Origin: Flavihumibacter fluminis
GTDB taxonomy: Bacteria > Bacteroidota > Bacteroidia > Chitinophagales > Chitinophagaceae
DNA length: 64,000 bases
Direction of reading: 5' to 3'
Assembly: GCF_021491375.1 (NCBI RefSeq)
Contig: NZ_JAKEVY010000002.1
Span: 1 to 64,000, forward strand
Notes under the pieces: generated by a model
Database searches by the model: none
Told to the model about the DNA's origin: nothing
What the model saw: only the letters and a program-made list of their open reading frames with translations
Position numbers and translations under genes: made by a program
Shown: piece after piece, positions 2,956 to 60,825 of the stretch
How the letters are laid out: every line of letters begins with the position of its first letter
How positions within the stretch are numbered: position 1 is the first letter of the stretch

Positions 2956-5187
2956 ATGCGAAACGTACTTTTTATTCTGCTCTGCCTGCCTTTCGGCTTA
3001 CTGGCACAGCAGCCAACCAGCAGTGAATTGTCCCGATGGGAAAAACAGGCTGATAACACCACTATCATCCGCGATAAGATGGGCATTCCGCATATCTATG
3101 GAAAGTCGGATGCCGATGCTGTATTTGGATTGCTCTACGCCCAATGCGAAGATGATTTTGCACGGGTGGAAATGAATTATATTGAAAAGCTTGGGCGATT
3201 GGCAGAGGTGCAGGGAGAGAGCAAACTCTATGATGATCTGTTAATCCGGCTGGTGATTGATGCCGAAGCAGCGCAACGTGATTATGCGAAAGCACCGGCC
3301 TGGTTGAAAAAACTCTGTGTCGCGTTTGCGGATGGGATCAACTATTATCTCTATAAAAACCCCCAGGTAAAACCGGCCCTGCTAACCCGCTTTGAACCCT
3401 GGTTCCCCATGCTGTGGACAGATGGCAGTATTGGTGCGATTACTACGGCTGATATCACGCTGAAAGAGCTGGCCAGTTTTTACGGTGATGCATCTCCGTT
3501 AGTTGCTGCAAATTCGGAACCCCATCGCGATATAACAGTTAATCAAACCTTCGAACCATTCGAAGAACCCCTTCCCACCGGCTCGAATGGATTTGCTATT
3601 GCGCCTGCCAAATCCGCCAGTGGCAAAGCAATGCTCTATATCAATCCGCATGTGAGTTTTTATTTCCGTCCCGAAGTGCATATGGTTTCCGAAGAAGGCT
3701 TGAATGCTTATGGGGCGGTTACATGGGGACAGTTTTTCATCTACCAGGGCTTTAATGAATACGCAGGCTGGATGCATACTTCCTGTTATGTGGATGCCGC
3801 AGATTCCTATATTGAACAAGTGGAAAAGCGTCCGTATGGATATGCATATCGCTATGAAGGAAAACTTCGTCCTGTCAAAACCAAACCGATTACCATTCGC
3901 TATAAAACAGCTGCGGGATCAGCAGAGAAAATTATCACGGCCTACTTCACGCACCATGGTCCTATTATGGCGAAGCGCAACAATCAGCTCCTCAGTATGA
4001 AAGCGGATAACCGCCTGCTTGAAGGAGTGATTCAATGCTGGCAACGTACCAAGGTGAAGGGACTGAAAGATTTTACCAAAACACTGGATCTGAAAGGAAA
4101 TCTCTCCAACAGTACGGTATATGCTGATCGGGAAGGGAATATCGCCTACTGGCATGGGAACCGGATTCCGAAAAGAGATCCTGCTATCGACTGGACAAAA
4201 CCTGTTGATGGCACAACAAAAGCAACCGAATGGAAAGGATATCATTCCATCAATGAAACCGTGCACATGGTGAATCCTTCGAATGGCTGGCTGCAACACT
4301 GCAATAGCACTGCTTTCCAGATTGCGGGTAGCAATAGTCCGGATCCAACACGCTTCCCTGCCTATATGGCCCCTGATGGTGATAATTTTCGTGGAGTCAA
4401 TGCCGTTAGGGTGCTTTCCAATCTTGACAAACTTGATATGGATGCACTCATCAAAGCAGGTTATGATCCCCGTCTCGCTGCATTTGAGGAATTGATCCCG
4501 GAATTGGTGAAGGCATTTGATGCACAACTGAAACCTGCTGATACCTTATATGCCTGGCTGGCCGGACCAATCGCTGTGCTGCGCAACTGGAATTACCAGG
4601 TGGATACTGCATCTATTGCTACTACAATGGCCGTGGAATGGGGACAGCGATTGCTGCCTGCCATCATGCGTGCAGGTCCTCAGGATGGCAAACCCCTGGA
4701 CCTGGTACAAAAGACCCGTGCCTATATTTCGGGTACTCCTCAGCGTGAGATGCTGCAGGCGCTTTACCTGACCCTACAGGATCTTCAGCAGCGATACGGC
4801 AAATGGCAGCTCGCCTGGGGGAATATCAATCGCTTCCAGCGCATTTCGCCGGCGATCGATTTACAGTTTGATGATAGCAAAACCAGTTTCCCGGTTGCCT
4901 TTGCTTCCGGAACCTGGGGAATGTTGCCATCTTATAACAGCCGGGTTTTCCCAGGCACCCGGAAGCGCTATGGGGTTCATGGCAACAGTTTTATCTGTGC
5001 GGTAGAGTTTGGTGAGAAAGTGCGCGCCAAAGCCCTGCTTGCAGGTGGTCAAAGTGGTGATCCGGCCTCCCCGCACTTCAGCGACCAGGTGGAAGCTTAC
5101 AGCAAGGGCCAGTTCCGGGAAGTGTTGTTCTATAAGGAAGATGTGGAAAGGAACGCTGAAAGGAGCTATAAGCCGGGGAGGAGGTGA
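2956..5187 (+). CDS. penicillin acylase family N-terminal-nucleophile amidase (S45)
   Basis: A 743-residue precursor with an N-terminal signal peptide ending near LLAQ (about 17). The autoproteolytic site is in PTGSNGFAI: Gly209-Ser210 would be cut to make Ser210 the N-terminal nucleophile of the beta chain. Relatives hydrolyse amide bonds of acyl-homoserine lactones, penicillins or other N-acyl amines in the periplasm; the substrate cannot be predicted here. It begins 12 bases after the ROK kinase and may be read through from that operon. Oddity: its stop codon TGA (5185-5187) is the TGA of the first unit of a seven-base repeat array that continues downstream. Confidence 0.88.
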   Translation: MRNVLFILLCLPFGLLAQQPTSSELSRWEKQADNTTIIRDKMGIPHIYGKSDADAVFGLLYAQCEDDFARVEMNYIEKLGRLAEVQGESKLYDDLLIRLVIDAEAAQRDYAKAPAWLKKLCVAFADGINYYLYKNPQVKPALLTRFEPWFPMLWTDGSIGAITTADITLKELASFYGDASPLVAANSEPHRDITVNQTFEPFEEPLPTGSNGFAIAPAKSASGKAMLYINPHVSFYFRPEVHMVSEEGLNAYGAVTWGQFFIYQGFNEYAGWMHTSCYVDAADSYIEQVEKRPYGYAYRYEGKLRPVKTKPITIRYKTAAGSAEKIITAYFTHHGPIMAKRNNQLLSMKADNRLLEGVIQCWQRTKVKGLKDFTKTLDLKGNLSNSTVYADREGNIAYWHGNRIPKRDPAIDWTKPVDGTTKATEWKGYHSINETVHMVNPSNGWLQHCNSTAFQIAGSNSPDPTRFPAYMAPDGDNFRGVNAVRVLSNLDKLDMDALIKAGYDPRLAAFEELIPELVKAFDAQLKPADTLYAWLAGPIAVLRNWNYQVDTASIATTMAVEWGQRLLPAIMRAGPQDGKPLDLVQKTRAYISGTPQREMLQALYLTLQDLQQRYGKWQLAWGNINRFQRISPAIDLQFDDSKTSFPVAFASGTWGMLPSYNSRVFPGTRKRYGVHGNSFICAVEFGEKVRAKALLAGGQSGDPASPHFSDQVEAYSKGQFREVLFYKEDVERNAERSYKPGRR

Positions 5188-5295
5188 GACGTCAGATGTG
5201 AGACGTGAGAATGGAAGAATGGAGACGGGAAACAGGAGACGGGAGGCGGGAAGCTGGAGGCAGGAGAAGGGAAGAAAGGAAACAGGAAACGGGAA
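5184..5295 (+). repeat. heptanucleotide array anchored on the penicillin acylase stop
   Basis: Seven-base units begin exactly at the stop codon: GTGAGAC, GTCAGAT, GTGAGAC, GTGAGAA (5184-5211), then decay into purine-rich heptads such as TGGAAGA, CGGGAAA, CAGGAGA, CGGGAGG up to about 5295. The seven-base register is kept through the decayed part. The purine-rich strand is the coding strand of the gene it follows. Confidence 0.85.
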
Positions 5296-5411
5296 ACTCT
5301 GGGCTGAATTCACACCGTTTGGGGGCGACGGAGCGGTGAGAATGGTTAAGGCTAAAAATAAATTTAGGCTCATCTAATTATTCTGGATGATTTCTATTAT
5401 TTTTATACGCC

Positions 5412-6236
5412 ATGAAGCAACTAGAACAATTCCTAACCGAAATCGGGCCTGTATGGGCGGCCCTTATAGCAACTACTTTTACCTGGCTGGTGACTGCCGC
5501 CGGCGCCTCCCTGGTATTCTTTTTCAAAACGATCAAACGCAGTGTATTTGATGCCATGCTCGGCTTTACGGGCGGGGTGATGGTGGCTGCCAGCTTTTGG
5601 TCCCTCCTGGCCCCCAGCATTGAATATTCAGAGAAGCTCTACCCCGATTTTCCCTGGATGCCCGCTGCAGTTGGCTTCCTGGCAGGAGCCCTCTTTATCT
5701 TTTCGCTCGATAAATTCATGCCCCACCTCCATATCAATTTTGGAGAGGATGAATCAGAGGGGATGAAAACCAAATGGCATAAAACCACCCTGCTGTTATT
5801 GGCCATCACCCTACACAATATCCCAGAGGGACTTGCTGTTGGTGTGCTTTTTGGGGCGGCTTCCATAGGAGTTGGAGAACACCTGATTCCTGCTGCCATC
5901 GCCCTGGCTTTTGGTATCGGTTTGCAGAACTTCCCGGAAGGCATGGCGGTTGCAATGCCCCTGCGCAGACATGGAGTGAGCAGGGCCAAGAGTTTCTGGT
6001 ATGGCCAGCTCTCCGCAATCGTTGAACCGGTTGCCGGTGTCCTGGGTGCTGTTGCTGTGATTTATATGCAACCCGTTTTGCCCTTCGCCCTGGCTTTTGC
6101 AGCCGGCGCCATGATCTATGTGGTAGTAGAAGAAGTGATCCCTGAAACCCAGCGCGATAAATTCACTGATGTAGCAGTTCTTGGGTTTATCGGTGGCTTT
6201 GTGGTGATGATGGTGCTGGATGTGGCCCTTGGGTAA
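5412..6236 (+). CDS. ZIP-family divalent metal transporter
   Basis: A 274-residue inner-membrane protein with about eight hydrophobic helices. The metal-path motifs in helices IV and V are clear: HNIPEGLAVGV (about 136) and NFPEGMAVA (about 176), each carrying the conserved N-x-x-P-E-G core. A short His/Asp/Glu loop (HLHINFGEDESEG) between helices III and IV is the usual variable metal-binding loop. It resembles bacterial ZupT-type importers of zinc, iron or manganese; specificity is not readable. It stands alone between a decayed heptad tract and a small DUF6132 gene. Confidence 0.88.
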   Translation: MKQLEQFLTEIGPVWAALIATTFTWLVTAAGASLVFFFKTIKRSVFDAMLGFTGGVMVAASFWSLLAPSIEYSEKLYPDFPWMPAAVGFLAGALFIFSLDKFMPHLHINFGEDESEGMKTKWHKTTLLLLAITLHNIPEGLAVGVLFGAASIGVGEHLIPAAIALAFGIGLQNFPEGMAVAMPLRRHGVSRAKSFWYGQLSAIVEPVAGVLGAVAVIYMQPVLPFALAFAAGAMIYVVVEEVIPETQRDKFTDVAVLGFIGGFVVMMVLDVALG

Positions 6237-6292
6237 CATTTATCACGCAACCGCGACTCCCAATTCCTGAACTTTGGCTAAATTCAGTCGCT

Positions 6293-6514
6293 ATGATCAA
6301 ATCTTTTATTCAAAGAAACAAGCTGATGTTATTGGGAGTTCTCCTCGGAGGAATCGCAGGATATCTCTACTATCATTTTATCGGGTGTGTGACCGGCACC
6401 TGTGCCATCACTTCCAAACCAGTGAACAGCACGGTTTATTTTGCAGTGATGGGAGGGTTGTTGTTTAGTATGCTGAAGAAAAGTGAGAAGTCAGACGTGA
6501 GAAGTGAAAAGTGA
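6293..6514 (+). CDS. DUF6132 family small membrane protein
   Basis: A 73-residue protein with two hydrophobic segments (about 12-29 and 48-60) and the block GYLYYHFIGCVTGTCAITS, which I recognise from DUF6132 proteins of Bacteroidota; these often lie near rhodanese or thioredoxin genes. Function is unknown; the two cysteines (CVTGTC) suggest redox or metal chemistry. Oddity: the last ten or so residues (SEKSDVRSEK) and the stop codon are encoded by the seven-base repeat that follows. The TGA of the second repeat unit would have been in frame but is changed to TCA, and the frame runs on to the TGA of the fifth unit. Confidence 0.75.
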   Translation: MIKSFIQRNKLMLLGVLLGGIAGYLYYHFIGCVTGTCAITSKPVNSTVYFAVMGGLLFSMLKKSEKSDVRSEK

Positions 6515-6538
6515 GACGTCAGATGTGAGACGTGAGAC
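6483..6538 (+). repeat. heptanucleotide array overlapping the DUF6132 3' end
   Basis: Eight consecutive seven-base units: GTGAGAA, GTCAGAC, GTGAGAA, GTGAAAA, GTGAGAC, GTCAGAT, GTGAGAC, GTGAGAC. The first four and part of the fifth lie inside the DUF6132 reading frame, and its stop TGA is 6512-6514 in the fifth unit. The purine-rich strand is the coding strand. Confidence 0.9.
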
Positions 6539-6551
6539 GCATGGAAGGCGA

Positions 6552-6641
6552 ACCACCGGAAGACGAACCACTGGAAGACCAAACACTGGAAGACCAAACA
6601 CTGGAAGACCAAACACTGAAAGAATAATCACTGAAAGAATA
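6552..6641 (+). repeat. six degenerate 15-base tandem repeats upstream of dsrE-like gene
   Basis: Six head-to-tail 15-base units fill the space just before the DsrE-like gene. Units 3 and 4 are identical (AACACTGGAAGACCA); unit 1 has ACCACCGGAAGACGA; units 5 and 6 drift to a CACTGAAAGAATA ending. The array ends eight bases before the ATG at 6649, so it would lie in the 5' untranslated region. Its period differs from the seven-base array that precedes it directly. Confidence 0.88.
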
Positions 6642-6648
6642 ACTAAGT

Positions 6649-7065
6649 ATGAAACAACTCACTATACTGGCATTCCTGCTGCTATCAGTTTTTACTAGTG
6701 CCATAGCACAAACAGGAGAGCCGAAGCATAAGCTGGTGATGCAACTAAATACCAGTGATACCCTCATCTGGAAGGGACTTATGAACAACCTCAAAAACCT
6801 CAAAGCAGGTTGGGGTGATTCGGTGAAAGTGGAAGTGGTGGTGCACGGTCCGGGTGTGCAGTTTATGATGAAGGATAAAACTACCCAGGCCGATAAGATC
6901 GCACAATTCAAAAAAATGGGTATTGACTTCGTAGTGTGCGAAAACACCCTCCGAGAACGCAAGGTTTCCAAAGATCAACTCCTACCCGAAGCAGGGTTTG
7001 TAAAAATGGGAGTAGGTGAAATAATTTTGAAACAGGAGGCGGGCTGGAGCTATATAAAGCTGTGA
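6649..7065 (+). CDS. exported DsrE-family protein
   Basis: A 138-residue protein with a signal peptide (cleavage near AIAQ, about 20) followed by a DsrE/DsrF-like fold: the VMQLNTSDTLIWKGLMNNLKNL opening, the VEVVVHGPGVQFM strand-helix, and a VCENTLRERKV cysteine segment near the usual active Cys. Cytoplasmic DsrE proteins handle sulfur transfer; exported members in Bacteroidota have no established role. It is probably periplasmic. The stop codon TGA (7063-7065) belongs to the first GTGAAAG unit of a heptad array, as for its neighbours. Confidence 0.8.
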   Translation: MKQLTILAFLLLSVFTSAIAQTGEPKHKLVMQLNTSDTLIWKGLMNNLKNLKAGWGDSVKVEVVVHGPGVQFMMKDKTTQADKIAQFKKMGIDFVVCENTLRERKVSKDQLLPEAGFVKMGVGEIILKQEAGWSYIKL

Positions 7066-7206
7066 AAGGTGAAAGGTGAAAGGTGAAAAGTGAAAGATCG
7101 TGAAACGTGAAAGGTGAGAAGTGAAAGGAGAGACCCTTCTTTCACTTTCTCACCTTTCACAATTTTTCACCTTTCACTTTTCACCTTTCACTTTTCACCT
7201 TTCACT
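7062..7206. repeat. two opposed heptanucleotide arrays between convergent genes
   Basis: From the DsrE stop rightwards run GTGAAAG units (7062-7096, then ATC, then four more). From the zinc-peptidase stop leftwards run the same units on the other strand (CTTTCAC / TTTTCAC on the plus strand, about 7134-7206). They meet near 7125-7134. Each array starts with the TGA stop of the gene it follows. Together they form a long imperfect inverted repeat that could fold as a hairpin and act as a two-way terminator. Confidence 0.88.
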
Positions 7207-8044
7207 TCAAACGAGCATCGTTGAATGTATCCCCCTGCCTGATATCCCCCGACTCATATCCTCTCTTAAACCAATACATGCGTTGCTCCGATGTGCCATG
7301 TGTAAAAGACTCGGGAACGATATAACCCTGGGCCTGTTTCTGTAACCGGTCGTCTCCAATTGCATTCGCAGCGCGTATGGCTTCCTCAATATCATCGGCA
7401 TCCAGCAGATTCTTATTAGCTGTATGATGCGCCCATACCCCCGCCAAAAAATCAGCCTGCAATTCCAGCATCACCGAATACTTGTTGTACTCCTCCTGGC
7501 TCACCTGCTGACGAATTTGCGCCAGCTTCTGTGTAGTGCCCAATAAGGTCTGGATATGATGCCCCACTTCATGCGATACCACATAGGCCATCGCAAAATC
7601 ACCTGGCGCCCCAAAACGCTGGGAGAGTTCATCGTAAAAGGAGAGATCAATGTATAATTTCTGATCACCCGGACAATAAAATGGTCCACTCGCCGCACTC
7701 GCAGATCCGCAGGCCGATTGTACGGCACCACTAAAGAGCACCAGGGTCGGCTCCCGGTACTGTGATCCATTTTCAGCAAACACTTTATTCCACACATCCT
7801 CGGTTTCTGCCAGCACCACTTTTACAAATCCGGCCAGCTCATCCTCCCGCGCCTTGGCCTCTGCACTCATCGGTGCACTGCTGCCCCCCGGTGCCTGCAA
7901 TTGTGAAACATCCACATCGCCACCCAAAAACAAGTTGAAAAGCAGAGCAATGATGCCCAGGATTCCACCTCCAATGGCTACCGGTCCGGCCATGCCGCGA
8001 CGATCTTCTACATTTCCGCTTTCGCGTCTTCCTTGCCAGCGCAT
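7202..8044 (-). CDS. YpfJ-type neutral zinc metallopeptidase
   Basis: A 280-residue protein of the zinc-dependent metallopeptidase family related to YpfJ. The N-terminus is cytoplasmic (MRWQGRRESGNVEDRRG), followed by one membrane anchor (about 22-40) and a long periplasmic catalytic domain. The active site HEVGHHIQ lies near residue 160, with a downstream ELQADFLAGVWAH block that supplies the third ligand in this family. The GPFYCPGDQKLYIDLSFY segment is also characteristic. Substrate is unknown. Its stop codon is the TGA of a heptad unit. Confidence 0.88.
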   Translation of the reverse strand: MRWQGRRESGNVEDRRGMAGPVAIGGGILGIIALLFNLFLGGDVDVSQLQAPGGSSAPMSAEAKAREDELAGFVKVVLAETEDVWNKVFAENGSQYREPTLVLFSGAVQSACGSASAASGPFYCPGDQKLYIDLSFYDELSQRFGAPGDFAMAYVVSHEVGHHIQTLLGTTQKLAQIRQQVSQEEYNKYSVMLELQADFLAGVWAHHTANKNLLDADDIEEAIRAANAIGDDRLQKQAQGYIVPESFTHGTSEQRMYWFKRGYESGDIRQGDTFNDARLK

Positions 8045-8178
8045 AGATTGTTTTTTACGAACAAATTAAGGAGAAATCGCATACGAATTGTGACGAGCTT
8101 TGAATATTTTATAACGCATTTCAACGAAGGCGTTTGGTTACAATTGAATATTTTTAGCACTTTTTAGAAAGAACCAAC

Positions 8179-10458
8179 ATGAAACAACTGAAATGGTATT
8201 TTGCCCTTTCGATGTGCCTGTTTGCATCGATTGCCACTGCCCAGCCCCTTCAACCTGTAGAGTATGTGAACCCGTTGATGGGCACCCAATCGCTGTTTAG
8301 CCTCTCCAATGGGAATACCTATCCCGCTATCTCACGCCCCTGGGGCATGAATTTCTGGACCCCTCAAACCGGGAAAATGGGCGATGGATGGGCCTATGTG
8401 TACACCGCTGATAAAATTCGTGGCTTCAAACAAACCCATCAGCCTTCTCCCTGGATGAACGACTATGGTCAGTTTGCCATCATGCCGGTTACCGGATCAC
8501 TGGTCTTTGATCAGAATAAAAGAGCCAGCTGGTTCTCGCATAAAGCAGAAACCGTATCTCCTGATTATTACAGCGTTTACCTGGCTGATTATGATGTGAC
8601 GACCGAAATCACTGCCACCGAAAGAGCTGCACAGTTTCGGTTCACGTTTCCCAAATCAGATAGCTCTTTCCTCGTGATTGATGCGTTTGATAAAGGCTCC
8701 TACGTGAAAATTCTCCCCAACGAAAAAAGAATCATCGGTTATACAACCAAAAATAGCGGGGGAGTGCCCGCTAATTTCAAGAACTACTTTGTACTCGAGT
8801 TCGATCAACCCTTCACGTTAGCTTATACCTGGCACGATTCGGTACTGGTGAAAAATCAGTTGGAGATGAAAGCCGATCATGCCGGCGCAGTGGTTGGTTT
8901 TAAAACCTTAAAGGGACAAAAAATCAATCTGAAAGTAGCGTCTTCTTTCATCAGTGAGGAGCAGGCCCTGCTCAACCTGCAGCGTGAAGTTGGAAAGGAA
9001 TCCTTTGATCAAACGCGCCAGGCATCCCGCAAAATCTGGAATGAAACACTTGGTAAAGTGAAAGTTGAAGGTGGTACCGATGAACAACTGCGCACCTTTT
9101 ATTCCTGCCTCTATCGCACGGTTTGTTTCCCGCAGAAACATTATGAATACGATGCGAACAATAAGATCGTGCATTATAGTCCGTATAATGGAGAAGTGTT
9201 GCCCGGCTACATGTATGCCGGTACTGGTTTCTGGGATACGTTCCGCGCACTCTATCCCTTGCTGAATTTGCTCTATCCTTCTATCAATAAGGAAATGCAG
9301 GAGGGACTCATCAACGATTTCAAAGAAGGTGGTTTCCTGCCTGAGTGGAGCAGTCCGGGTTTCAGAAATGTAATGGTGGGCAATAACTCTGCTTCTGTTG
9401 TTTCCGATGCCTACATGAAAGGACTTCGCGGATACGATATCAATAAATTGTACGAAGCACTTTTGCATGGTGCGAATAATGAAGGTCCGTTGGATGCAGT
9501 GGGCAGAAAGGGAGTAAGCTATTACAATGAACTCGGTTATGTTCCCTATGATGTAAAGATCAATGAGAATGCAGCCCGCACGCTGGAATATGCTTACGAT
9601 GATTTTACTATCTGGCAACTGGCAAAAGCATTGAACCGTCCGAAAGAAGAAATCGCCTTGTATGAAAAGCGTATGCTGAATTATCGCAATCTTTTTGATC
9701 CTGAAACCAAACTGATGCGCGGTAAAAACAAGGATGGCAAATTCCAGGCGCCATTCAATCCCTTAAAATGGGGCGATGCGTTCACTGAAGGAAATAGCTG
9801 GCATTATAGCTGGAGTGTGTTTCATGATATACAGGGACTCATCAACCTCATGGGAGGCGCCAATACCTTTGTCAACATGCTCGACTCCGTATTTGTGATG
9901 CCACCCCTGTTTGATGACAGCTATTATGGATTTCCGATTCATGAAATCCGCGAAATGCAGATAATGAATATGGGACAGTATGCACATGGCAACCAGCCCA
10001 TCCAGCACATGCCTTATCTCTACAATTATGCCGGTCAGCCCTGGAAAACACAGTATTGGGTGCGCGAAGTAATGAACCGCATGTACAAACCAACTCCGGA
10101 TGGTTATTGCGGTGATGAAGACAATGGTCAGACTTCCGCCTGGTATGTTTTCTCCGCGATGGGATTTTATCCTGTTTGTCCGGGTACCGATCAGTATGTG
10201 TTGGGAACTCCCTTATTTAAAAAGATGACCCTCCAATTGGAAAATGGAAAGCAGTTAACGATACAGGCTCCTGCCAATTCCGCTTCCAACAAATATGTTC
10301 GCGAAATCAAATGGAATGGAATCATCAATCCAAATACCTACCTGAAACACGGAGACCTGATGAAAGGTGGATCACTGCAGTTCAGCATGCAGGCAACTCC
10401 GGATAAAAAAAGAGGAACAGATAAAAAGACCTTCCCTTATTCTTATTCTTCAAACTAA
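8179..10458 (+). CDS. GH92 alpha-mannosidase
   Basis: A 759-residue exported enzyme (signal peptide to about IATAQ, residue 22) of glycoside hydrolase family 92, calcium-dependent exo-alpha-mannosidases used by Bacteroidota on N-glycans and yeast mannan. Family landmarks: the N-terminal VNPLMGT block with NGNTYPAISRPWGM, the GTGFWDTFRALYPL segment, and the C-terminal catalytic GDEDNGQTSAWYVFSAMGFYP block. Length is typical. The GH125 gene starts six bases after its stop, so the two form an operon. No SusC/D pair lies alongside, so this is not a full utilisation locus within the window. Confidence 0.93.
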   Translation: MKQLKWYFALSMCLFASIATAQPLQPVEYVNPLMGTQSLFSLSNGNTYPAISRPWGMNFWTPQTGKMGDGWAYVYTADKIRGFKQTHQPSPWMNDYGQFAIMPVTGSLVFDQNKRASWFSHKAETVSPDYYSVYLADYDVTTEITATERAAQFRFTFPKSDSSFLVIDAFDKGSYVKILPNEKRIIGYTTKNSGGVPANFKNYFVLEFDQPFTLAYTWHDSVLVKNQLEMKADHAGAVVGFKTLKGQKINLKVASSFISEEQALLNLQREVGKESFDQTRQASRKIWNETLGKVKVEGGTDEQLRTFYSCLYRTVCFPQKHYEYDANNKIVHYSPYNGEVLPGYMYAGTGFWDTFRALYPLLNLLYPSINKEMQEGLINDFKEGGFLPEWSSPGFRNVMVGNNSASVVSDAYMKGLRGYDINKLYEALLHGANNEGPLDAVGRKGVSYYNELGYVPYDVKINENAARTLEYAYDDFTIWQLAKALNRPKEEIALYEKRMLNYRNLFDPETKLMRGKNKDGKFQAPFNPLKWGDAFTEGNSWHYSWSVFHDIQGLINLMGGANTFVNMLDSVFVMPPLFDDSYYGFPIHEIREMQIMNMGQYAHGNQPIQHMPYLYNYAGQPWKTQYWVREVMNRMYKPTPDGYCGDEDNGQTSAWYVFSAMGFYPVCPGTDQYVLGTPLFKKMTLQLENGKQLTIQAPANSASNKYVREIKWNGIINPNTYLKHGDLMKGGSLQFSMQATPDKKRGTDKKTFPYSYSSN

Positions 10459-10463
10459 CAAAC

Positions 10464-11897: not shown

Positions 11898-11898
11898 C

Positions 11899-28929: not shown

Positions 28930-28978
28930 TTCTCACTTCTGACGTCTCAGTTCTGACGTCTGACGTCTCACATCTCAC
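28930..28978 (-). repeat. heptanucleotide array inside the cbb3 operon
   Basis: Seven units on the minus strand (GTGAGAT, GTGAGAC, GTCAGAC, GTCAGAA, CTGAGAC, GTCAGAA, GTGAGAA), starting with the TGA stop codon of ccoNO (28975-28977) and ending 24 bases before ccoQ. The array therefore separates oxidase genes that should be co-expressed. Confidence 0.9.
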
Positions 28979-31080
28979 TTCTTAATGTCCGTTCCCAGTC
29001 TCTGCAAATAAGCAATCAACGCCACAATCTCATCGTGCTTGCCTACCTCAATCTTTTCCATTTTCAAATTGATACGAATGGCATTGGCCTGGGTGTTGAG
29101 TTCCTTGTTGGCGATATTCGCATAATCTTTCTCGTAAGGAACGCCCAGGGTTTGCATGGCTTTGATCATTTTCGGAGTCAATGTGGTATCAATCTTATCC
29201 TCAAATAACCAGGGGTAGGCAGGCATGATAGAACCCGGACTCATACTGGTAGGATCCAGCATGTGGTTGTAGTGCCAGCTGTCGGGGTATTTTCCACCTT
29301 CACGTGCCAGATCGGGACCGGTCCTTTTTGATCCCCACTGGAAGGGGTGATCATATACAAACTCACCGGCTTTACTGTATTCGCCGTAACGGGCAACTTC
29401 ATCACGGAAGGGGCGTATCATCTGGCTGTGACAGGTATAACAACCCTCGCGTACATAAATATCACGACCATGAAGTTCAAGTGGTGTATACGGTTTCACG
29501 CTGCTGATAGTTGGCACATTTGATTTCACCAGGAAGGCAGGTACAAATTCCAGCACACCACCAATGGCAACTGCTATAAAACTCCATACCAGCATCTGGA
29601 TAGGGCGTTTTTCAATCCAGCGGTGCCAGTGTTCCTTACCATGAGTTTTAATCTCTTTGGGAAGCGGAGCAGCTTCTGCCGGTTCATTCGCAACAAAACT
29701 ACCCGCCTTGATGGTTTTGTACAGGTTGTACACCATAATAAATGCCCCGGTCAGATAGAGGGTACCCCCAATACTTCGGGTGATATACATCGGGATAATA
29801 TGTGTAACAGTTTCAAGGAACTGAAACTTCAGTTGTCCTTCTTCAGTGAATTGCTTCCACATCATGCTCTGTGCAAAACCTGCCCAGTACATTGGGATGG
29901 CATACAACACAATACCAATTGTTCCAATCCAGAAGTGAGTTCCCGCCAGTTTCTTGGAATAAAGCGGTGTGTTGTACATTCTGGGGATCAGCCAGTAGAG
30001 AACTCCAAAGGTCAGGAAGCCGTTCCAGCCAAGCGCACCTACGTGTACGTGCGCAATAATCCAGTCGCTGAAGTGTGCAATAGCATTTACGTTTTTCAAA
30101 CTCAGCATGGGACCTTCAAAAGTGGCCATACCATAACAGGTTACTGCTACCACGAGGAACTTCAATACGGGTTCTTCTCTCACTTTATCCCAGGCACCAC
30201 GAAGGGTAAACAAACCGTTCAGCATACCACCCCAGGAAGGAGCAATCAGCATAACGGAGAAGACTACCCCAAGAGATTGTGCCCAGTCGGGTAAGGCGGT
30301 ATACAACAGGTGGTGCGGACCCGCCCAGATATAAATAAAGATCAGTGCCCAGAAGTGGATGATGGAAAGCCGGTAAGAGTATACCGGGCGATTCGCAGCT
30401 TTAGGCAGGAAGTAATACATGAGTCCGAGATAAGGCGTTGTCAGAAAGAAGGCCACCGCATTGTGACCATACCACCATTGTACCAATGCATCCTGAACAC
30501 CTGCATACCAGCTATAGCTTTTAAACAGGCTGATGGGTAATTCAAAACTGTTTACAATATGCAGCATCGCAACGGTAACCCAGGTAGCGATATAAAACCA
30601 GATGGCTACGTAAAGATGACTTTCTCTTCTTTTAAGAATAGTACCGAACATGTTGATACCGAACACCACCCAAATCAGGGTAATGGCGATATCCATGGGC
30701 CATTCCAGCTCCGCATATTCCTTACCGGTAGTATAACCGGCCCAGAGTGTTAAAGCTCCAGCAAGGATAATACCCTGCCAGCCCCAGAAATGGATCTTGC
30801 TGAGCAGATCGCTGAACATTCTGGCCTTTACAAGGCGTTGTAAAGAATAATAAACACCCATAAAAATACCGTTGCCCACAAAGGCGAAAATCACGGCATT
30901 CGTGTGTACAGGGCGCATTCTTCCAAATGTGGTTGGTGCATAGTCAAGGTTGATGGCCGGATAATAAAGGGCAATGGCGGCCCATAATCCCGCCAGCATG
31001 CCTACAAGACCCCATGTAATGGTTGCAAAAGCAAACCATTTCACGATTTTGTTGTCGTAACTGAATTGTTCAATCTGCAT
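28975..31080 (-). CDS. ccoNO: fused cbb3 oxidase subunits I and II (CcoN-CcoO)
   Basis: A 701-residue fusion. Residues about 1-470 are the 12-helix heme-copper subunit CcoN (HNAVAFFLTTPYLGLMYYF, HVHVGALGWNGF segments with His ligands). A linker and extra helix (about 495-520) lead into the CcoO cytochrome c domain with CYTCHSQMIRPF (about 552) and DLAREGGKYPDSWHYNHMLDPTSMSPGSIMP (axial Met region). It is the catalytic core of the high-affinity oxidase that reduces oxygen and pumps protons. Fusion of N and O is common in Bacteroidota. The stop TGA lies in a heptad unit. Confidence 0.96.
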   Translation of the reverse strand: MQIEQFSYDNKIVKWFAFATITWGLVGMLAGLWAAIALYYPAINLDYAPTTFGRMRPVHTNAVIFAFVGNGIFMGVYYSLQRLVKARMFSDLLSKIHFWGWQGIILAGALTLWAGYTTGKEYAELEWPMDIAITLIWVVFGINMFGTILKRRESHLYVAIWFYIATWVTVAMLHIVNSFELPISLFKSYSWYAGVQDALVQWWYGHNAVAFFLTTPYLGLMYYFLPKAANRPVYSYRLSIIHFWALIFIYIWAGPHHLLYTALPDWAQSLGVVFSVMLIAPSWGGMLNGLFTLRGAWDKVREEPVLKFLVVAVTCYGMATFEGPMLSLKNVNAIAHFSDWIIAHVHVGALGWNGFLTFGVLYWLIPRMYNTPLYSKKLAGTHFWIGTIGIVLYAIPMYWAGFAQSMMWKQFTEEGQLKFQFLETVTHIIPMYITRSIGGTLYLTGAFIMVYNLYKTIKAGSFVANEPAEAAPLPKEIKTHGKEHWHRWIEKRPIQMLVWSFIAVAIGGVLEFVPAFLVKSNVPTISSVKPYTPLELHGRDIYVREGCYTCHSQMIRPFRDEVARYGEYSKAGEFVYDHPFQWGSKRTGPDLAREGGKYPDSWHYNHMLDPTSMSPGSIMPAYPWLFEDKIDTTLTPKMIKAMQTLGVPYEKDYANIANKELNTQANAIRINLKMEKIEVGKHDEIVALIAYLQRLGTDIKK

Positions 31081-47980: not shown

Positions 47981-48022
47981 TTTTCACGTCTCACATCTGA
48001 CGTCTCACGTCTCACATCTGAC
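47981..48022 (-). repeat. heptanucleotide array abutting the rimM start
   Basis: On the plus strand TTTTCAC, GTCTCAC, ATCTGAC, GTCTCAC, GTCTCAC, ATCTGAC end one base before the rimM ATG. Unlike the other classic arrays, no gene stop lies at its purine-strand start, and the purine strand is opposite to the flanking genes. Confidence 0.9.
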
Positions 48023-51233: not shown

Positions 51234-51237
51234 CCCC

Positions 51238-53100: not shown

Positions 53101-53119
53101 TTGTTTTTTATAGTTGTGG

Positions 53120-53154
53120 AATCCGGTCCGCTTAAGGCGGACCGGATTTTTTTT
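53120..53154 (+). terminator. intrinsic terminator after the peroxiredoxin gene
   Basis: Twelve-base arms (AATCCGGTCCGC / GCGGACCGGATT), five-base loop, eight T. Confidence 0.92.
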
Positions 53155-53270
53155 GTGCAATTCCTTCCCCATGCTGTTGAGTTATGTCTCGCTAAATGCA
53201 ATGTTCCATTCCACATAAGCAGTTATCAAAACTGGTATCATTTTGGGCCTCTTTCTGTAAACTCTTAGCT

Positions 53271-53726: not shown

Positions 53727-53732
53727 TGGTTT

Positions 53733-53768
53733 AAAAAAGGTAGTATATTCATGTACTATCCTTTTTTT
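53733..53768 (+). terminator. terminator-like hairpin abutting the amidohydrolase start
   Basis: AAAAAAGGTAGTA pairs imperfectly (one bulge) with TACTATCC-T7; the last T is directly followed by ATG 53769. It also argues against the alternative start at 53751, which lies in the loop. Confidence 0.55.
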
Positions 53769-55046: not shown

Positions 55047-55049
55047 GTA

Positions 55050-56102
55050 ATGACGGTACTCTTACTCTTATCCTGGTTCCTGATCCTGACGGTGGTATTA
55101 CCGTTTGTGAAAAATGATTACTGGATTTTCAGAATCTGTGAGTATCCGCGTTTTCAGAAACTGATGCTGTGCAGCATCCTGCTGGTTGTTTGGATCGTGC
55201 TGGGCGACTATGGGCAGTTGTTTCAGCACATTACGTTTGTGCTGCTGATTCTGTCAGTAGCGTACCTGCTTTACCTGGTCTGGCCTTATCTGCCCCTGGC
55301 AAAACGGGAAGTAAAAACAGTTGCAACTTCAGATACAGCTAACCAGCTTAGTATTTATACCTGTAATGTTTTTCAGGATAACAAAGACTTTTCGCGACTG
55401 ATCAACCAGGTTAAACAAATCAATCCTGATCTGATCTTTTTACTCGAAACCGATACAGCCTGGCAGACAGCAATGGATGAAGCTTTCGGTCACGACTATC
55501 CGAACCAGCTCAAACAACCACTAGCCAATACCTATGGTCTATTGCTGTACAGCCGACTGCCTTTCAAAGAAGCGAAAATTCACTTTCTGGTAGAAGAAGA
55601 TGTGCCATCCGCGCAGGTTCAACTCAAGCTTCCTTCCGGTCATCCTGTTACCATTTGGGGCTTGCATCCCAAACCTCCTGTTCCGGGTGAAGATGACCGG
55701 TCTACAGCTAAAGACAAGGAGCTTATGAAGGTAGCGCTCAAAGTGAAGGAAGCCAGTCAATCCACCATCGTTATGGGTGATCTGAATGATGTTGCCTGGA
55801 GTTATGTCACTGATCTGTTCCGCAAAACCAGTGGCCTCCTGGATCCCCGCCGGGGCCGGGGTTTTTACAGCACCTTCTCTTCCAATTACTGGTTCATGCG
55901 ATTTCCGCTTGATTATATTTTCAGCTCAGCAGATTTCGGCCTGGTACAAATGAAACGAATGCCACATGTAGGATCGGATCATTTTCCCATGTTTGTACAA
56001 CTCCAGTTTAATCCCTCGCTGGAACATATTCATGAAAAACCAGTTGCGACATCCGAAGAAAAAGCTGAAGCAAAAGAGAAAGCAACAAACGCAATCGATT
56101 GA
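55050..56102 (+). CDS. membrane-anchored EEP hydrolase
   Basis: A 350-residue protein with three N-terminal helices (about 2-20, 35-52, 58-80) and a C-terminal EEP domain (about 98-320): IYTCNVFQDN, IFLLETDTAW (Glu), IVMGDLNDVAWS (Asp/Asn) and GSDHFPMFVQL (Asp-His). The tail is Lys/Glu/Ala-rich and probably disordered. Membrane EEP proteins of this shape occur across Bacteroidota with unknown substrate. It starts three bases after the amidohydrolase stop. Confidence 0.88.
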   Translation: MTVLLLLSWFLILTVVLPFVKNDYWIFRICEYPRFQKLMLCSILLVVWIVLGDYGQLFQHITFVLLILSVAYLLYLVWPYLPLAKREVKTVATSDTANQLSIYTCNVFQDNKDFSRLINQVKQINPDLIFLLETDTAWQTAMDEAFGHDYPNQLKQPLANTYGLLLYSRLPFKEAKIHFLVEEDVPSAQVQLKLPSGHPVTIWGLHPKPPVPGEDDRSTAKDKELMKVALKVKEASQSTIVMGDLNDVAWSYVTDLFRKTSGLLDPRRGRGFYSTFSSNYWFMRFPLDYIFSSADFGLVQMKRMPHVGSDHFPMFVQLQFNPSLEHIHEKPVATSEEKAEAKEKATNAID

Positions 56103-56172
56103 TCTGGAATTTTTACCCTGTTTTTTTGCAATTGCTAATACTTCATTCTTGTGCATTACTTAACTTGTAAGC

Positions 56173-56769
56173 ATGAAATACACTGCAGTTTTATTAATAG
56201 CCCTTTGCCTCAGCGGCTCGATTGTGGCCCAAAAATCAAAATCCCTCTTTAATGGTAAAAATCTCAAAGGCTGGACCATTCACGGTACTGAAAAATGGTA
56301 CGTGGAGAATGGTGAGCTGGTTTGTGAAAGTGGCCCCGATAAACAATACGGGTATCTGTCCACCAACAAAACCTACAAGAACTTTGAATTGACGCTTCAA
56401 TTTAAACTGGAAGCCAATGGCAACAGCGGAGTCTTCATCCGTTCCGGAATTGAAGGCACCAAGATCAGTGGCTGGCAGGTGGAAGTGGATCCCGAGGGAA
56501 AACACACCGGCGGGATCTACGAATCTTATGGCCGTGGCTGGTTGATCAAACCAAAGTCGGAAGATGAAAGCAAACTGAATCCAACTGGCTGGAATGAAAT
56601 GCGCATCCTCGTGCAGGGCGATCGCGTTACCAGTTTCCTGAATGGTACCCAAATGGTTGATATCACCGATGCCAAAATTGGTGCAGGCAATGGTTTTATT
56701 GCCTTACAGATCCACGATGGCGGCGGCATTAAAGTGCGTTGGAAAAATATCCGAATCAAAGAACTCTAA
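56173..56769 (+). CDS. exported DUF1080 (3-keto-disaccharide hydrolase family) protein
   Basis: A 198-residue protein with a signal peptide (to about SIVAQ, 20) and a concanavalin-like jelly roll: SLFNGKNLKGWTIHG, GYLSTNKTYKNFELTLQFKLE, NSGVFIRSG, and the closing GFIALQIHDGGGIKVRWKNIRIKEL. DUF1080 proteins were linked to hydrolysis of 3-keto-glycosides. Followed 17 bases later by a Gfo/Idh/MocA oxidoreductase with a Tat signal, which fits an oxidise-and-cleave periplasmic pathway. Confidence 0.9.
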   Translation: MKYTAVLLIALCLSGSIVAQKSKSLFNGKNLKGWTIHGTEKWYVENGELVCESGPDKQYGYLSTNKTYKNFELTLQFKLEANGNSGVFIRSGIEGTKISGWQVEVDPEGKHTGGIYESYGRGWLIKPKSEDESKLNPTGWNEMRILVQGDRVTSFLNGTQMVDITDAKIGAGNGFIALQIHDGGGIKVRWKNIRIKEL

Positions 56770-56785
56770 CTCAGATTATAGTAGC

Positions 56786-58156
56786 ATGAACAAAAAAGAA
56801 CAAGCTTCCCGCAGAGGGTTTCTTCGCTCCATGGCGGCTGCAACAGCCGGACTTGCAATTGGTCAAACAGCCATGGCTGCAGAAGAAAAAAATGTTTTTA
56901 TTCAATCCATTCGCAGTCGAACTGGTTTTGAAGCCAATGATCAAATCAACATCGCCCTGATTGGTGCTGGTGGTATGGGTGTTCAGGATACCATTACTGC
57001 CTTGCAGGTACCAGGTGTTAAACTGGTAGCTGTTTGTGATTTGTACGATGGTCGTTTGAAAGAAGCAAAACAGAGATGGGGCGCAAACATCGCTACCACC
57101 CGCAGTTATAAGGAAATCCTGAATCGCAAGGATGTGGATGCCGTGATTATTGCAACACCTGATCACTGGCACCAGCAGATTTCAATCGATAGCCTGAAAG
57201 CCGGCAAACATGTGTATTGTGAAAAACCGATGGTGCACTCCATTGGTGAAGGTCCGGCTGTAATTAAAGCACAGCAGGAGTCCGGCAAAATTTTCCAGGT
57301 TGGCAGCCAGGGAGTATCCTCTCTTGGAAATGAAAAAGCAAAGGAATTATTGAAAGATGGCGCGATTGGCGAACTCAATTATGCAGAAGGTTTCTGGGCC
57401 CGTCATTCTCCTGTGGGAGCCTGGCAATACCCAATTCCGGAGGATGCATCTCCCTCCACGGTAGATTGGGAAACCTTTATCAGCAATACCAACAAACGTC
57501 CCTTTGATAAAACACGTTTCTTCCGCTGGAGAAATTATACGGATTATGGTACCGGCATGTCGGGTGATTTGTTCGTACACCTTTTTTCCAGTTTGCACTT
57601 TATCACCGACTCATTCGGACCGAATAAAGTTTATTCTTCCGGGGGCCTGCGGTACTGGAAAGATGGTCGCGAAGTGCCCGATGTATTGTTAGGTACATTT
57701 GATTATGGCGTTTCCAAAGCACATCCTGCATTCAATCTTTCCCTGCGATGCAATTTCGTGGATGGAACCAGTGGTACCACCTTCTTGAAACTGGTCGGCA
57801 GTGAAGGATCAATGGATATCACCTGGGATGATGTAACCGTAAAACGCAACAAGGAAGTGTCTTCCGATGATCCCTTCTTCATTGAACAAATGCGCAAAGC
57901 CGGCAAGGAAGTGGGAGGTAGAAAACGCATTCTTCCTCCGCAGGAATTCACCTTCCGTGCAGAGAATGGATACAAGGGAGGACCCTATGATCATTTCGCT
58001 AACTTCTTTGAAGCGATTCGCAAAAATGGCAAAGTAGCAGAGGATGCGGTCTTTGGTTATCGCGCTGCTGCTCCTGCTTTATTGTGTAACGACAGTTATC
58101 GCCAGGACAAAGCCATTCTCTGGAATCCGGAGAAAATGGAACTGGTGAAAAAATAA
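56786..58156 (+). CDS. exported Gfo/Idh/MocA-family oxidoreductase
   Basis: A 456-residue protein from ATG 56786; an earlier frame opening at 56642 runs through the previous gene and is rejected. The N-terminus has a Tat signal (SRRGFLRSMAAA) ending near TAMAA. Rossmann motif IALIGAGGMGVQDT, then NAD-sugar motifs DAVIIATPDHWH and HVYCEKPMVHS (catalytic Lys of the EKP motif). Members in this context oxidise a sugar at C3 to the keto form; Tat export implies cofactor loading before export. Paired with the DUF1080 gene. Confidence 0.91.
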   Translation: MNKKEQASRRGFLRSMAAATAGLAIGQTAMAAEEKNVFIQSIRSRTGFEANDQINIALIGAGGMGVQDTITALQVPGVKLVAVCDLYDGRLKEAKQRWGANIATTRSYKEILNRKDVDAVIIATPDHWHQQISIDSLKAGKHVYCEKPMVHSIGEGPAVIKAQQESGKIFQVGSQGVSSLGNEKAKELLKDGAIGELNYAEGFWARHSPVGAWQYPIPEDASPSTVDWETFISNTNKRPFDKTRFFRWRNYTDYGTGMSGDLFVHLFSSLHFITDSFGPNKVYSSGGLRYWKDGREVPDVLLGTFDYGVSKAHPAFNLSLRCNFVDGTSGTTFLKLVGSEGSMDITWDDVTVKRNKEVSSDDPFFIEQMRKAGKEVGGRKRILPPQEFTFRAENGYKGGPYDHFANFFEAIRKNGKVAEDAVFGYRAAAPALLCNDSYRQDKAILWNPEKMELVKK

Positions 58157-58876
58157 TCAACCCTGCTTCTCCAATTGCTGAAGGCATGCCCGTAAGTCCT
58201 TCGGCAATGGAGCATGCAGTTCAATTGCTTTTCCATCCCGGTCTGTAAACTGCAGCGAACTTGCATGCAGCCCCAGTCGGTTTAACAAAGGCTTTTCTTC
58301 CAGCACATCTTTTCCCAACTTGAATTTTTTCTTGATGTTTGACAGCAGGAAGGGTTTGCCATCTCCATAATAGGGATCACACACAATCGGATGACCCATG
58401 TGCTGCATATGCACCCGAATCTGGTGGGTGCGTCCTGTGAGAATGGTGAACTCCATCCAGGAATAAAGCGGAAAGGCTTCCAGTGTTTTAAATAAAGTTA
58501 TTGAAGGCTTCCCTTTTCTGACAACTGTCATTTGTCCCGGTTTGCCAGGATGCGGCCCAATCGGCACATCAATGATACCTTCTTCTTCATACACTTTGCC
58601 CAGGACCAGTCCATTGTATTTTTTTACCGTTGAGCGCTCTTCAAACTGCTTGGACAAAAACTGGTGACTGCTTTCATTTTTGGCAAACAGAATCACTCCA
58701 CTGGTTTCGCGGTCTAAGCGATGTACAGTGAAGATGGTTCCATAAGCCGCTATCAACAGATCTTTCAGTGAAGGCGCAGATTGTTCCCGATCGGGTATAG
58801 AGAGTAAGCCAGCTTCTTTGTTGATGGCTACCCAGTCTTCCGTTTCCTGTAGTATCGCGCTTTTGATCGATTTCAT
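58157..58876 (-). CDS. RluA-family pseudouridine synthase
   Basis: A 239-residue pseudouridine synthase without an S4 domain. Catalytic Asp in VHRLDRETSGVILFAK (about 52-67), with GRTHQIRVHMQHMGHPIVCDPYYG later. It modifies rRNA or tRNA uridines; the exact site is not readable. It starts one base before the stop of the RsuA-type gene upstream, so the two are an operon. Its stop abuts the convergent oxidoreductase. Confidence 0.92.
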   Translation of the reverse strand: MKSIKSAILQETEDWVAINKEAGLLSIPDREQSAPSLKDLLIAAYGTIFTVHRLDRETSGVILFAKNESSHQFLSKQFEERSTVKKYNGLVLGKVYEEEGIIDVPIGPHPGKPGQMTVVRKGKPSITLFKTLEAFPLYSWMEFTILTGRTHQIRVHMQHMGHPIVCDPYYGDGKPFLLSNIKKKFKLGKDVLEEKPLLNRLGLHASSLQFTDRDGKAIELHAPLPKDLRACLQQLEKQG

Positions 58877-58877
58877 C

Positions 58878-59990
58878 TTATTGTCCGGATTTTTTGGGAG
58901 CCTTGATTGTTTTCTTCACGGGCCTGTTTGGTTTACTGGCTTCAGCCCTGGAGCTTTTTTCTCTTGCTCTGAAACCGGCGGATGCTGCTTTACTGGACGA
59001 GGATCCTTTTTCGAAAGCCGGCTCTTCTGCTTTATCTGCTTTTTTCTTCAGGTCTTTGTTGAAATGTTTCAAGGTGCGGATTTCTTTTTCCGTGAGTAAC
59101 CGAAATTTTCCGCGGTTCACATTCTTCTTGGTGAGGCCTGCATAACTCACACGATCCAATCCCTTAACATCATATTTCAGGTGTTCAAAGATTCTGCGCA
59201 CGATGCGGTTCCGGCCACTGTGAATTTCTATACCGATGATGGATTTATCGCGGGGATCTGCATAACCAATGGCATCGGGTTGAATGAAACCATCTTCCAA
59301 CGTGATACCATGAGCGATACTTTCAAAGTCTGCTTTGCTCACCGGGCGATCCAGTTTTACCTCATAGATTTTTTTCACCTGGTTTTTCGGGTGCGATAAG
59401 GTTTGCGCCAGTTCGCCATCATTGGTAAGCAATAACACACCACTGGTGTTACGGTCCAGTCTGCCTATCGGATAAACGCGTTCTGCAGTTGCTGTTTTGA
59501 TCAGGTCCAGCACGGTTTTACGGCCTTGCGGATCTTCTGTGGTGGTAATATAATCCTTGGGCTTGTTCAGCAGGATATAAACCAGGTTCTTCGTCAGGTG
59601 AATTTTTTTACCCTTGACTTTAACTTCGTCCTTATCGGTGACTTTAAATCCTGGTTCGATGATGGATTGACCATTTACGGTAACTACACCAGATTTCACC
59701 AGTTCTGCTGCATCGCGGCGGGCACAGATGCCTGCATGTGCGATGTATTTGTTGAGGGGCATGGGACCACCAGGAGTTTCGGTTCCTGATTTTTCAAAAG
59801 CGCTGCCTGGTTTTCCCTGGGAGGGTTGATTTCTTTTTTCCAGTTTCAGCTTTCGCTTTTCTTCAAAGGACTGATCAATGGCTTGTTCTCTTTCCTTCTT
59901 CTCTACTCTTCTTTCCTGGCGGTATTGTTCTTTGACAGTACCCGCTTTTTTCTTGTTGACGAATTTCTCGAATCCGGTCGATTTTTTCAT
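58878..59990 (-). CDS. RluB/RsuA-type pseudouridine synthase
   Basis: A 370-residue enzyme from ATG 59990 (a longer frame from 60026 overlaps the promoter and is rejected). A lysine/arginine/glutamate-rich N-terminal arm (about 1-80) precedes an S4 domain (PLNKYIAHAGICARRDAAELVKSG), then a synthase domain with the Asp motif VYPIGRLDRNTSGVLLLT. The C-terminal 60 residues are Lys/Ser/Ala-rich and look disordered. Isomerises specific 23S/16S rRNA uridines. First gene of an operon with the RluA paralogue. Confidence 0.92.
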   Translation of the reverse strand: MKKSTGFEKFVNKKKAGTVKEQYRQERRVEKKEREQAIDQSFEEKRKLKLEKRNQPSQGKPGSAFEKSGTETPGGPMPLNKYIAHAGICARRDAAELVKSGVVTVNGQSIIEPGFKVTDKDEVKVKGKKIHLTKNLVYILLNKPKDYITTTEDPQGRKTVLDLIKTATAERVYPIGRLDRNTSGVLLLTNDGELAQTLSHPKNQVKKIYEVKLDRPVSKADFESIAHGITLEDGFIQPDAIGYADPRDKSIIGIEIHSGRNRIVRRIFEHLKYDVKGLDRVSYAGLTKKNVNRGKFRLLTEKEIRTLKHFNKDLKKKADKAEEPAFEKGSSSSKAASAGFRAREKSSRAEASKPNRPVKKTIKAPKKSGQ

Positions 59991-60023
59991 GTTGTTGTAT
60001 TTACTGTTTTTCAACAGGAAGTG

Positions 60024-60031
60024 CAAAAATA
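60024..60031 (-). promoter_or_regulatory. TAnnTTTG -7 element of the RluB-type gene
   Basis: TATTTTTG on the minus strand, an exact match, about 33 bases before ATG 59990. It directly follows the Spy-gene terminator. Confidence 0.6.
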
Positions 60032-60032
60032 C

Positions 60033-60059
60033 AAAAGACAGCCGGGATGGCTGTCTTTT
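60033..60059 (-). terminator. intrinsic terminator after the Spy-like gene
   Basis: Eleven-base arms (AAAAGACAGCC / GGCTGTCTTTT) with a five-base loop; symmetrical, so it could also work on the other strand. Confidence 0.85.
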
Positions 60060-60079
60060 TGTCGTTTCCAGGGTTTGTT

Positions 60080-60637
60080 TTATCGGGCCGGACCGTCCAT
60101 AGTTCTTTGGGATCGTTGTTTTAACTGCTCTAATTGTTCAGGAGTAAGCAGTTTGCGCATGTTTTCTCTGTTGGCTTCCTGTAGCGCCTTCAGTTTTGTT
60201 TTTTTCTCTGCATCAGATAAGGCAGTATTGGCCTTGATCAGCGCTGCTTCTTCGCGTTGCTGTTGATGCATCGTGCGCATACTGATTTTCTGCTCATTGG
60301 TTAAATTGGAAACCATGGGGCGATTGCGATGTTTACCTTGTTTCATACGCTCTCCTCGGTTTTTCCGGAGTTGCTCCAGTTTGGCTTTCTGTTCGGGCGT
60401 GTAAACCGCCATGCGTTTTTGCTGGTATTCTTCCTGCAAGGCTTTCAATTGCAACTTCTGTGCATCCGTCAGTTGCAGAATGGAATCCATGCGCGCTCCG
60501 CGCTGGTGCATCATACCGCCTTTACGATGAGATAGATGCTGATTTCTTTTATAAGGTTGCTTTTGCGCTGTACTATCCTGTGCGGTTACACTCAGGAAAC
60601 CCAATCCCAGCATGCCTAGTAGAAGTATTTTTTTCAT
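60080..60637 (-). CDS. Spy/CpxP-like periplasmic LTxxQ protein
   Basis: A 185-residue exported protein (signal peptide to about SVTAQ, 20) with two LTxxQ-type helical modules: LTDAQKLQLKALQEEYQQKR and LTNEQKISMRTMHQQQREEAALI, plus a closing LTPEQLEQLKQ. The mature part is Lys/Arg/Gln-rich. Spy-like chaperones protect envelope proteins. A transcription terminator follows. Confidence 0.85.
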   Translation of the reverse strand: MKKILLLGMLGLGFLSVTAQDSTAQKQPYKRNQHLSHRKGGMMHQRGARMDSILQLTDAQKLQLKALQEEYQQKRMAVYTPEQKAKLEQLRKNRGERMKQGKHRNRPMVSNLTNEQKISMRTMHQQQREEAALIKANTALSDAEKKTKLKALQEANRENMRKLLTPEQLEQLKQRSQRTMDGPAR

Positions 60638-60732
60638 TTTCCTGTCTGTTTATTAAATAGACCGGAAATGAAACCCCGCGTTTAATGCTTATTGGTAGAA
60701 TCTTTTGTTATAACAACTGCTTAACAATTCTG

Positions 60733-60825
60733 CCTCCCGCCTCCTTTGCCTCCTTTGTCTCCCGTCTCCTCTGTTTCCTCTTCCATGCCCTCTTCCTTTC
60801 TCACATCTGACGTCTGACATCTCAC
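60733..60825 (-). repeat. heptanucleotide array anchored on the rlmN stop
   Basis: From the rlmN stop TGA (60822-60824 on the minus strand): GTGAGAT, GTCAGAC, GTCAGAT, GTGAGAA, then purine-rich heptads on the minus strand down to about 60733. The purine strand is the coding strand of rlmN. Confidence 0.85.

Follow-up and report, generated by a model that had tools for sequence, protein, structure and literature searches.

A dispersed family of seven-base repeat arrays at the 3' ends of genes in Flavihumibacter fluminis

Why should a short tandem repeat begin at the stop codon of a gene? The question is raised by a stretch of 64,000 bases (positions 1 to 64,000, hereafter the window) of a contig that belongs to the 4.71 Mb genome of Flavihumibacter fluminis, labelled G000. 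An earlier note had described six genes of this window in which the TGA stop codon is part of a seven-base repeat, and inspection of the sequence with exact matches to the pattern GTSARAN bore this out at all six named genes; in five of them (5187, 7065, 7202, 28975 and 60822) it is the first unit whose TGA serves as the stop. The list of sites was nevertheless incomplete, since the window contains eight arrays (Table 1), and the two that had been omitted, 47982-48022 and 62870-62896, do not lie at a stop and constitute counter-examples to stop anchoring. Exact matches to two consecutive units numbered 38 in the window, against 0.13 expected from shuffled sequences. The names of the array-bearing genes were backed by Pfam, and a search of Rfam at gathering scores gave no match anywhere in the window. 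Some arrays set the last residues of proteins; at the DUF6132 gene the array encodes the C-terminal tail.

Table 1. Heptad arrays of the window and an associated purine tract
Feature	Positions	Strand	Gene context
Four-unit array	5184..5210	+	Stop TGA of the penicillin amidase gene (2956-5187) inside unit 1
GGA-rich purine tract (TRF, period 21)	5221..5297	+	3' of the penicillin amidase array
Eight-unit array	6483..6537	+	Stop (6512-6514) of the DUF6132 gene (6293-6514) inside unit 5
GTGAAAG-type array	7062..7126	+	Stop of the DsrE-like gene (6649-7065) inside unit 1
GTGAAAG-type array	7148..7205	-	Faces the 7062..7126 array; stop of the Zn_peptidase gene (7202-8044) inside unit 1
Array	28931..28978	-	Stop of the ccoNO fusion gene (28975-31080) inside unit 1
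Array, antisense to flanking genes	47982..48022	-	Begins 2 bases before the rimM start codon (48024)
Four-unit array	60799..60825	-	Stop of rlmN (60822-61865) inside unit 1
Four-unit array	62870..62896	-	Gap of about 1.3 kb between called genes, without a close upstream same-strand gene

Other tandem repeats are also present in the window. Purine-rich repeats of 15 to 45 bases were found at 5221-5297, 61883-62051 and 63047-63136, and a 15-base family related to them starts 5 bases after a same-strand stop in 3 of 11 instances in the genome sample described below. A separate 15-base tandem repeat lies between the DUF6132 and DsrE-like genes (6542-6638; 6.5 copies of TGGAAGACCAAACAC).

Placement and orientation of the arrays

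Across the whole of G000, three consecutive GTSARAN units matched 345 times on the forward and 331 times on the reverse strand, 676 matches in which overlapping hits within one array count apart, and the reversed pattern used as a control matched nowhere. The idea that arrays are oriented by replication strand was dropped on these two counts. Placement relative to genes was analysed in a sample of 51 stretches (the window and 50 others; contigs shorter than 2.5 kb were omitted) comprising 1,050,723 bp and 890 genes, called by a custom script from open reading frames and a hexamer score, with approximate starts. Some stretches were picked with array places in view, which biases the density of arrays upwards but should not affect their places relative to genes. 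The sample contains 75 arrays, 72 of them with called neighbours; those at window 62870, L010 1158 and L013 19922, each missing a called gene at one flank, do not enter the gene-context counts.

The arrays occupy the 3' ends of genes, start at or just behind the stop codon and are rare between divergent genes. Convergent regions (100) hold 34 of the 72 arrays, co-directional regions (510) hold 37, and divergent regions (129) hold a single one, even though divergent gaps are the longest on average, at 195 bp (p = 1e-7); the array at 62870 in the window, excluded as an edge, would be a second divergent case. The gene on the 5' side is the nearer neighbour for 64 of the 72 arrays, at a median distance of 3.5 bases versus 95, and no GTSARAN array was found inside a called gene of the 1.05 Mb sample. 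Among the 57 arrays behind a same-strand gene, 40 start between -3 and +6 of the last base of the stop, against a random mean of 8.8 and a maximum of 20 in 20,000 trials; the commonest offsets are -3 (n=20), +5 (n=9), +6 (n=5) and -17 (n=4), the others being scattered. Because negative distances arise partly by construction, the array itself supplying the stop, distances of zero or more were tested separately: of the 28 arrays whose start does not precede the end of the stop, 20 start at 0-6, where 2.7 would be expected. In the 29 arrays that hold the stop, unit 1 is the one used in 20, against an expectation of one third (p = 9e-5). Where the 5'-side gene lies on the other strand, the array and the gene's start are no more than 6 bases apart in 3 of 15 cases (p = 0.05), which is no clear anchoring. 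When a same-strand gene follows on the 3' side, its start lies at a distance of 9 to 266.

The positions of the arrays are therefore not independent of stop codons, and the anchoring with fixed orientation that the earlier note had proposed was found far above chance when distance to the stop and strand at stops were tested. Its statement that the purine-rich strand is always the coding strand stands for arrays that touch a stop or lie within 10 bases of it, where the two orientations are far from equal (51 sense and 1 antisense of 52), and fails for arrays as a whole: the 37 in co-directional gaps comprise 23 sense and 14 antisense (binomial p = 0.19). By region, co-directional gaps carry a single plus array in 18 cases, a minus array in 9 and a plus-minus pair in 5, and convergent gaps a pair in 12, plus in 6 and minus in 4, with one divergent region. 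Plus-minus pairs thus occur in 17 of 55 array-bearing regions and minus-plus pairs in none, so that the prevailing direction of reading is outwards from genes and the members of a pair face each other. By eye, and uncounted, terminator-like hairpins lie 3' of many arrays. Arrays in L235 (11625-11919) and L032 (6339-6681) were seen, also by eye, to adjoin candidate tRNA genes.

Unit composition and comparison of close species

The range of 4 to 10 or more copies originally given can be refined, as the commonest length is exactly four units, or 27 bp (38 of 75 arrays), followed by 34 bp (9) and by 20, 41 and 48 bp (4 each). A typical array reads GTGAGAY-GTSAGAY-GTSAGAY-GTGAGA; its repeats are direct, not inverted, and TRF reports periods of 7, 14 and 21. 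The variant units come in a shared order at different loci. Among the 38 four-unit arrays, C occupies the third position of units 1 to 4 in 1, 20, 7 and 2 cases, respectively, an A stands two bases before the array in 35, and 17 pairs are identical, compared with 5.7 when columns are shuffled (P = 0.004). Array genes are enriched in TGA stops (35 of 52, versus 214 of 836 other genes) and in AAG as last codon (20 of 52, versus 30 of 836), an excess that arises partly by construction, the array supplying the stop.

Orthologous gene ends were compared in G000 and two close species, G004 and G008, which are 84-95 percent identical in the stretches compared; unit types were judged by eye. In 220 kb of G000 we called 189 genes, 145 of which are matched by orthologues in both relatives within the stretches compared. 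Nine of these genes carry an array at the stop in G000: for five of them there is one in every species of the three, for two there is one in G000 and G004, with another repeat unit in G008, and for two in G000 only; among the 145 genes none had an array in G004 or G008 that was absent from G000. The place of an array is thus often kept between close species, and the unit type can differ at the same place, as it does at four of the five stops with arrays in all three (two of which are the sides of one convergent pair). In the order G000, G004, G008, the units are GTSAGAY, GTSAGAY and GTGAAAG at the DUF6132 gene; GTGAAAG, GTSAGAY and GTGAAAG at the DsrE-like gene and likewise at its convergent partner, the Zn_peptidase gene; and GTSAGAY, GTGAAAG and GTGAAAG at ccoNO, where the right flank is alike though the array differs. 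The fifth gene has GTSAGAY throughout. The share of GTSAGAY among three-unit matches falls from 321 of 676 in G000 to 164 of 473 in G004 and 42 of 432 in G008. One gene stop in L029 is followed by GTGAGAC in G000 and G005, GTGAAAG in G004, GTGAATG-like units in G008 and GGAAGTG-like units in G014, and by no array in G002.

Two genes of the window illustrate stops with and without arrays. At rlmN, whose orthologues were located by tblastn, the array is absent from G004 and G008, whose genes end in AAG TGA G, as does that of G011, also array-free, and is present in G014. In G004 and G008, AAGTGAG is followed by one base and then ATGGAAGAGG; G000 has about 33 extra bases there, with GTGAG and GGAAGAGG recurring at the two sides of the extra stretch. 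The penicillin amidase gene extends one codon further at its 3' end in G000 than in G004 and G008, and in five relatives its stop is TAA (three), TAG or TGA, none with GTGA there and three with a palindrome behind it. In L049, L050 and L051 a palindrome composed of CACCGGTCGGGTGCCACC-like words stands directly 3' of the stop, where the window has its heptad array. Other repeats, in small numbers, also lie close behind some stops: AAGAAGTGA is repeated at another stop of G004, GTAAGAG-like heptads follow one TAA in G001, and G011 has a palindromic repeat whose core is GTCTGACGTACGTCAGAC and whose period is 11 bases (L215:16700, L216:6117 and L216:12806), in 3 copies in 74 kb, located 6, 6 and 15 bases after a stop.

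How arrays may come to lie at stop codons

The explanation that we tentatively favour, while regarding it as somewhat short of probable, is that the arrays form a dispersed heptad family at gene boundaries, spread and homogenised by recombination between arrays. Arrays would be copied into purine-rich gene ends, and existing ones overwritten in place by others, through recombination or template switching; from the sequences compared here we infer such conversion. The identical four-unit pairs, the preference for C at the third base of unit 2 and the in-place change of units at four of five stops all argue for copying. We propose three reasons why arrays begin at the stop: it would be the natural left limit, since coding constraint ends there; an array could take the place of the native stop and alter the protein only slightly, a stop being present in each GTGA unit; and native ends, AAG TGA G for example, would be homologous to arrays. 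This homology cannot be the whole reason, because 17 of the 52 array genes have TAA or TAG. In E. coli the minimum length for recombination is 23-27 bp, and efficient recombination of the arrays may require at least four units. Against copying stand the two of eight window arrays that are off stops, the 14 antisense arrays in co-directional gaps, and the penicillin amidase relatives, with their lack of GTGA at the stop and their palindromes. The rlmN locus also counts against it, since either polarity is possible there given the array of G014 at that stop, as does the orientation in other genera of the family, which is not clear (14 same-strand versus 13 opposite-strand of 29).

A process confined to each locus would be replication slippage, in which the sequence around a native stop, for instance AAG TGA G, is duplicated in sevens and grows in place; we consider this possible but doubtful. 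The AAG TGA G already present at rlmN in the array-free G004, G008 and G011 would suit it, as would the repeated AAGAAGTGA of G004 and the GTGAATG, GGAAGTG and GTAAGAG-like units behind orthologous stops in relatives. However, it does not account for the identical order of variant units at unrelated loci, for the sharp peak at four units or for the arrays whose genes end in TAA or TAG. Slippage seeded at the stop, one of the origins that had been suggested for these arrays, is a live partial explanation, and within the copying model that we prefer, the first units of an array may arise by slippage where the native stop is part of GTGA.

Two other explanations appear less probable still. A selected function of the RNA after the stop (protection, termination, spacing or a fail-safe stop), which we hold to be improbable, would fit the retention of array stops among close species, the terminator-like hairpins and the facing arrays at 7062-7205, which can pair as one long, very stable hairpin (predicted fold of 7058-7207, -98.7 kcal/mol, z -14.8). 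On the other hand, unit types turn over, antisense copies exist, ten of 15 genus genomes have 0-3 matches, and three array regions folded alone gave z of only -1.2 to -1.6, a fourth reaching -4.5 with a separate terminator-like hairpin included. The fail-safe role suggested previously, with stops in every frame, is poorly supported: unit 2 is GTCA, without a TGA, in 20 of the 38 four-unit arrays, nine four-unit arrays are antisense between co-directional genes, and the TAA and TAG stops noted above also speak against it. Insertion of 27-bp units at gene ends by a mobile element with its own enzyme, very unlikely in our judgement, would agree with their dispersed, patchy occurrence and defined length. 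The repeats are direct, not inverted, however, and by eye no clear target duplication was seen at rlmN. The enzyme search covered the RAYT family PF01797, which had no match in the array-rich G000, G008 and G005 and gave weak single matches in the array-rich G004 and G014 and also in the array-poor G007 and G010. The mobile origin raised in the earlier note is thus poorly supported as far as RAYT mobility is concerned; REP/RAYT repeats, moreover, are palindromic, unlike these.

Relation to known heptad repeats and distribution

Intergenic heptad arrays are known from heterocystous cyanobacteria as STRR, which resemble the present arrays in kind and differ from them in unit sequence. The word GTGAGAC did not occur among the matches listed for the open PMC literature. 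The anchoring itself is not unprecedented, contrary to what had been supposed, and our arrays are a variant of the gene-end heptads of Xanthomonas and Nostoc (GGGAATC and GGGGA(C/T)T), as far as these are described in the sections of Rehm et al. 2015 (PMC4692102) considered here. According to those sections, four units are preferred, matching the four G-tracts of a G-quadruplex, and quadruplexes formed in vitro; the average distance to the 5'-side ORF is 28 nt, versus 160, the heptads being found on the coding strand close to the stop or overlapping it, or else on the opposite strand ahead of an ORF; 30-35 percent are on each strand of co-directional ORFs, 16 percent between convergent ORFs, with inverted pairs, and 7-8 percent between divergent ORFs; and 83 percent of Xcc places also occur in Xac (PMC4692102).

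On that description the two families share an intergenic seven-base unit, the four-unit preference (38 of 75 at 27 bp here), proximity to the 5'-side ORF and to coding-strand stops (64 of 72, and 51 versus 1), scarcity between divergent ORFs and convergent inverted pairs. In contrast, our arrays are more often convergent (34 of 72) and less often antisense (14, with 23 sense), their unit contains TGA, which is often the stop, and their unit type differs at orthologous places. Nor do they share the G-tracts: GG occurs in none of the 36 four-unit arrays of the GTSAGAY type, and GGG in 2 of all 75. Because these main-type arrays lack GG, the four-unit peak and the stop placement do not need quadruplex formation by the array, although GGA-rich tracts behind some arrays hold GGG.

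The TAACTGA direct repeats of Beggiatoaceae, Cyanobacteria and some Bacteroidetes, as presented in the parts of MacGregor 2015 (PMC4679880) drawn on here, are a further precedent, 13 sets overlapping the upstream stop; in the main genome they lie mostly just upstream of start codons, in forward orientation. Like our arrays they are heptads with stops in every frame of one strand, some over upstream stops, and patchy across phyla; unlike them, they are in that genome mostly placed just upstream of starts, a placement that the 3'-side start distances found here do not show.

The four-copy preference of heptads had previously been linked to G-quadruplexes, and this genus provides a natural control that separates the rules of length and placement from quadruplex structure; the same places with different units in close species make the copying mechanism testable. 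It is conceivable, if rather unlikely, that one general process, common to Bacteroidota, Gammaproteobacteria and Cyanobacteria, writes four-unit heptad arrays of any unit sequence outwards from gene boundaries, above all stops, in which case the 4 x 7 length and the placement rules would be properties of that process, independent of quadruplexes and of any one sequence.

The distribution of the arrays is patchy. Five of the 15 genus genomes are array-rich, with 226-676 matches, the remainder having the 0-3 mentioned above, and three GTSAGAY units in succession were found in 16 of 294 family genomes. In 20 regions from 6 genomes of other genera, chosen because they hold matches, 29 arrays have a 5'-side gene on the same strand in 14 cases, on the opposite strand in 13 and none in 2, and 5 of the 14 arrays behind a same-strand gene start at -3 to +6 of its stop. 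These data lend weak support to stop anchoring in other genera and none to the orientation rule. Among IMG/VR viral contigs 42 stretches match the GTSAGAY pattern; their 43 arrays have the 5'-side gene on the opposite strand in 28 cases, on the same strand in 10 and none in 4, and one lies inside a gene. In four of these stretches (L145, L147, L152 and L153) the array is 462-471 bases from the 5'-side same-strand gene, perhaps as part of one shared element.
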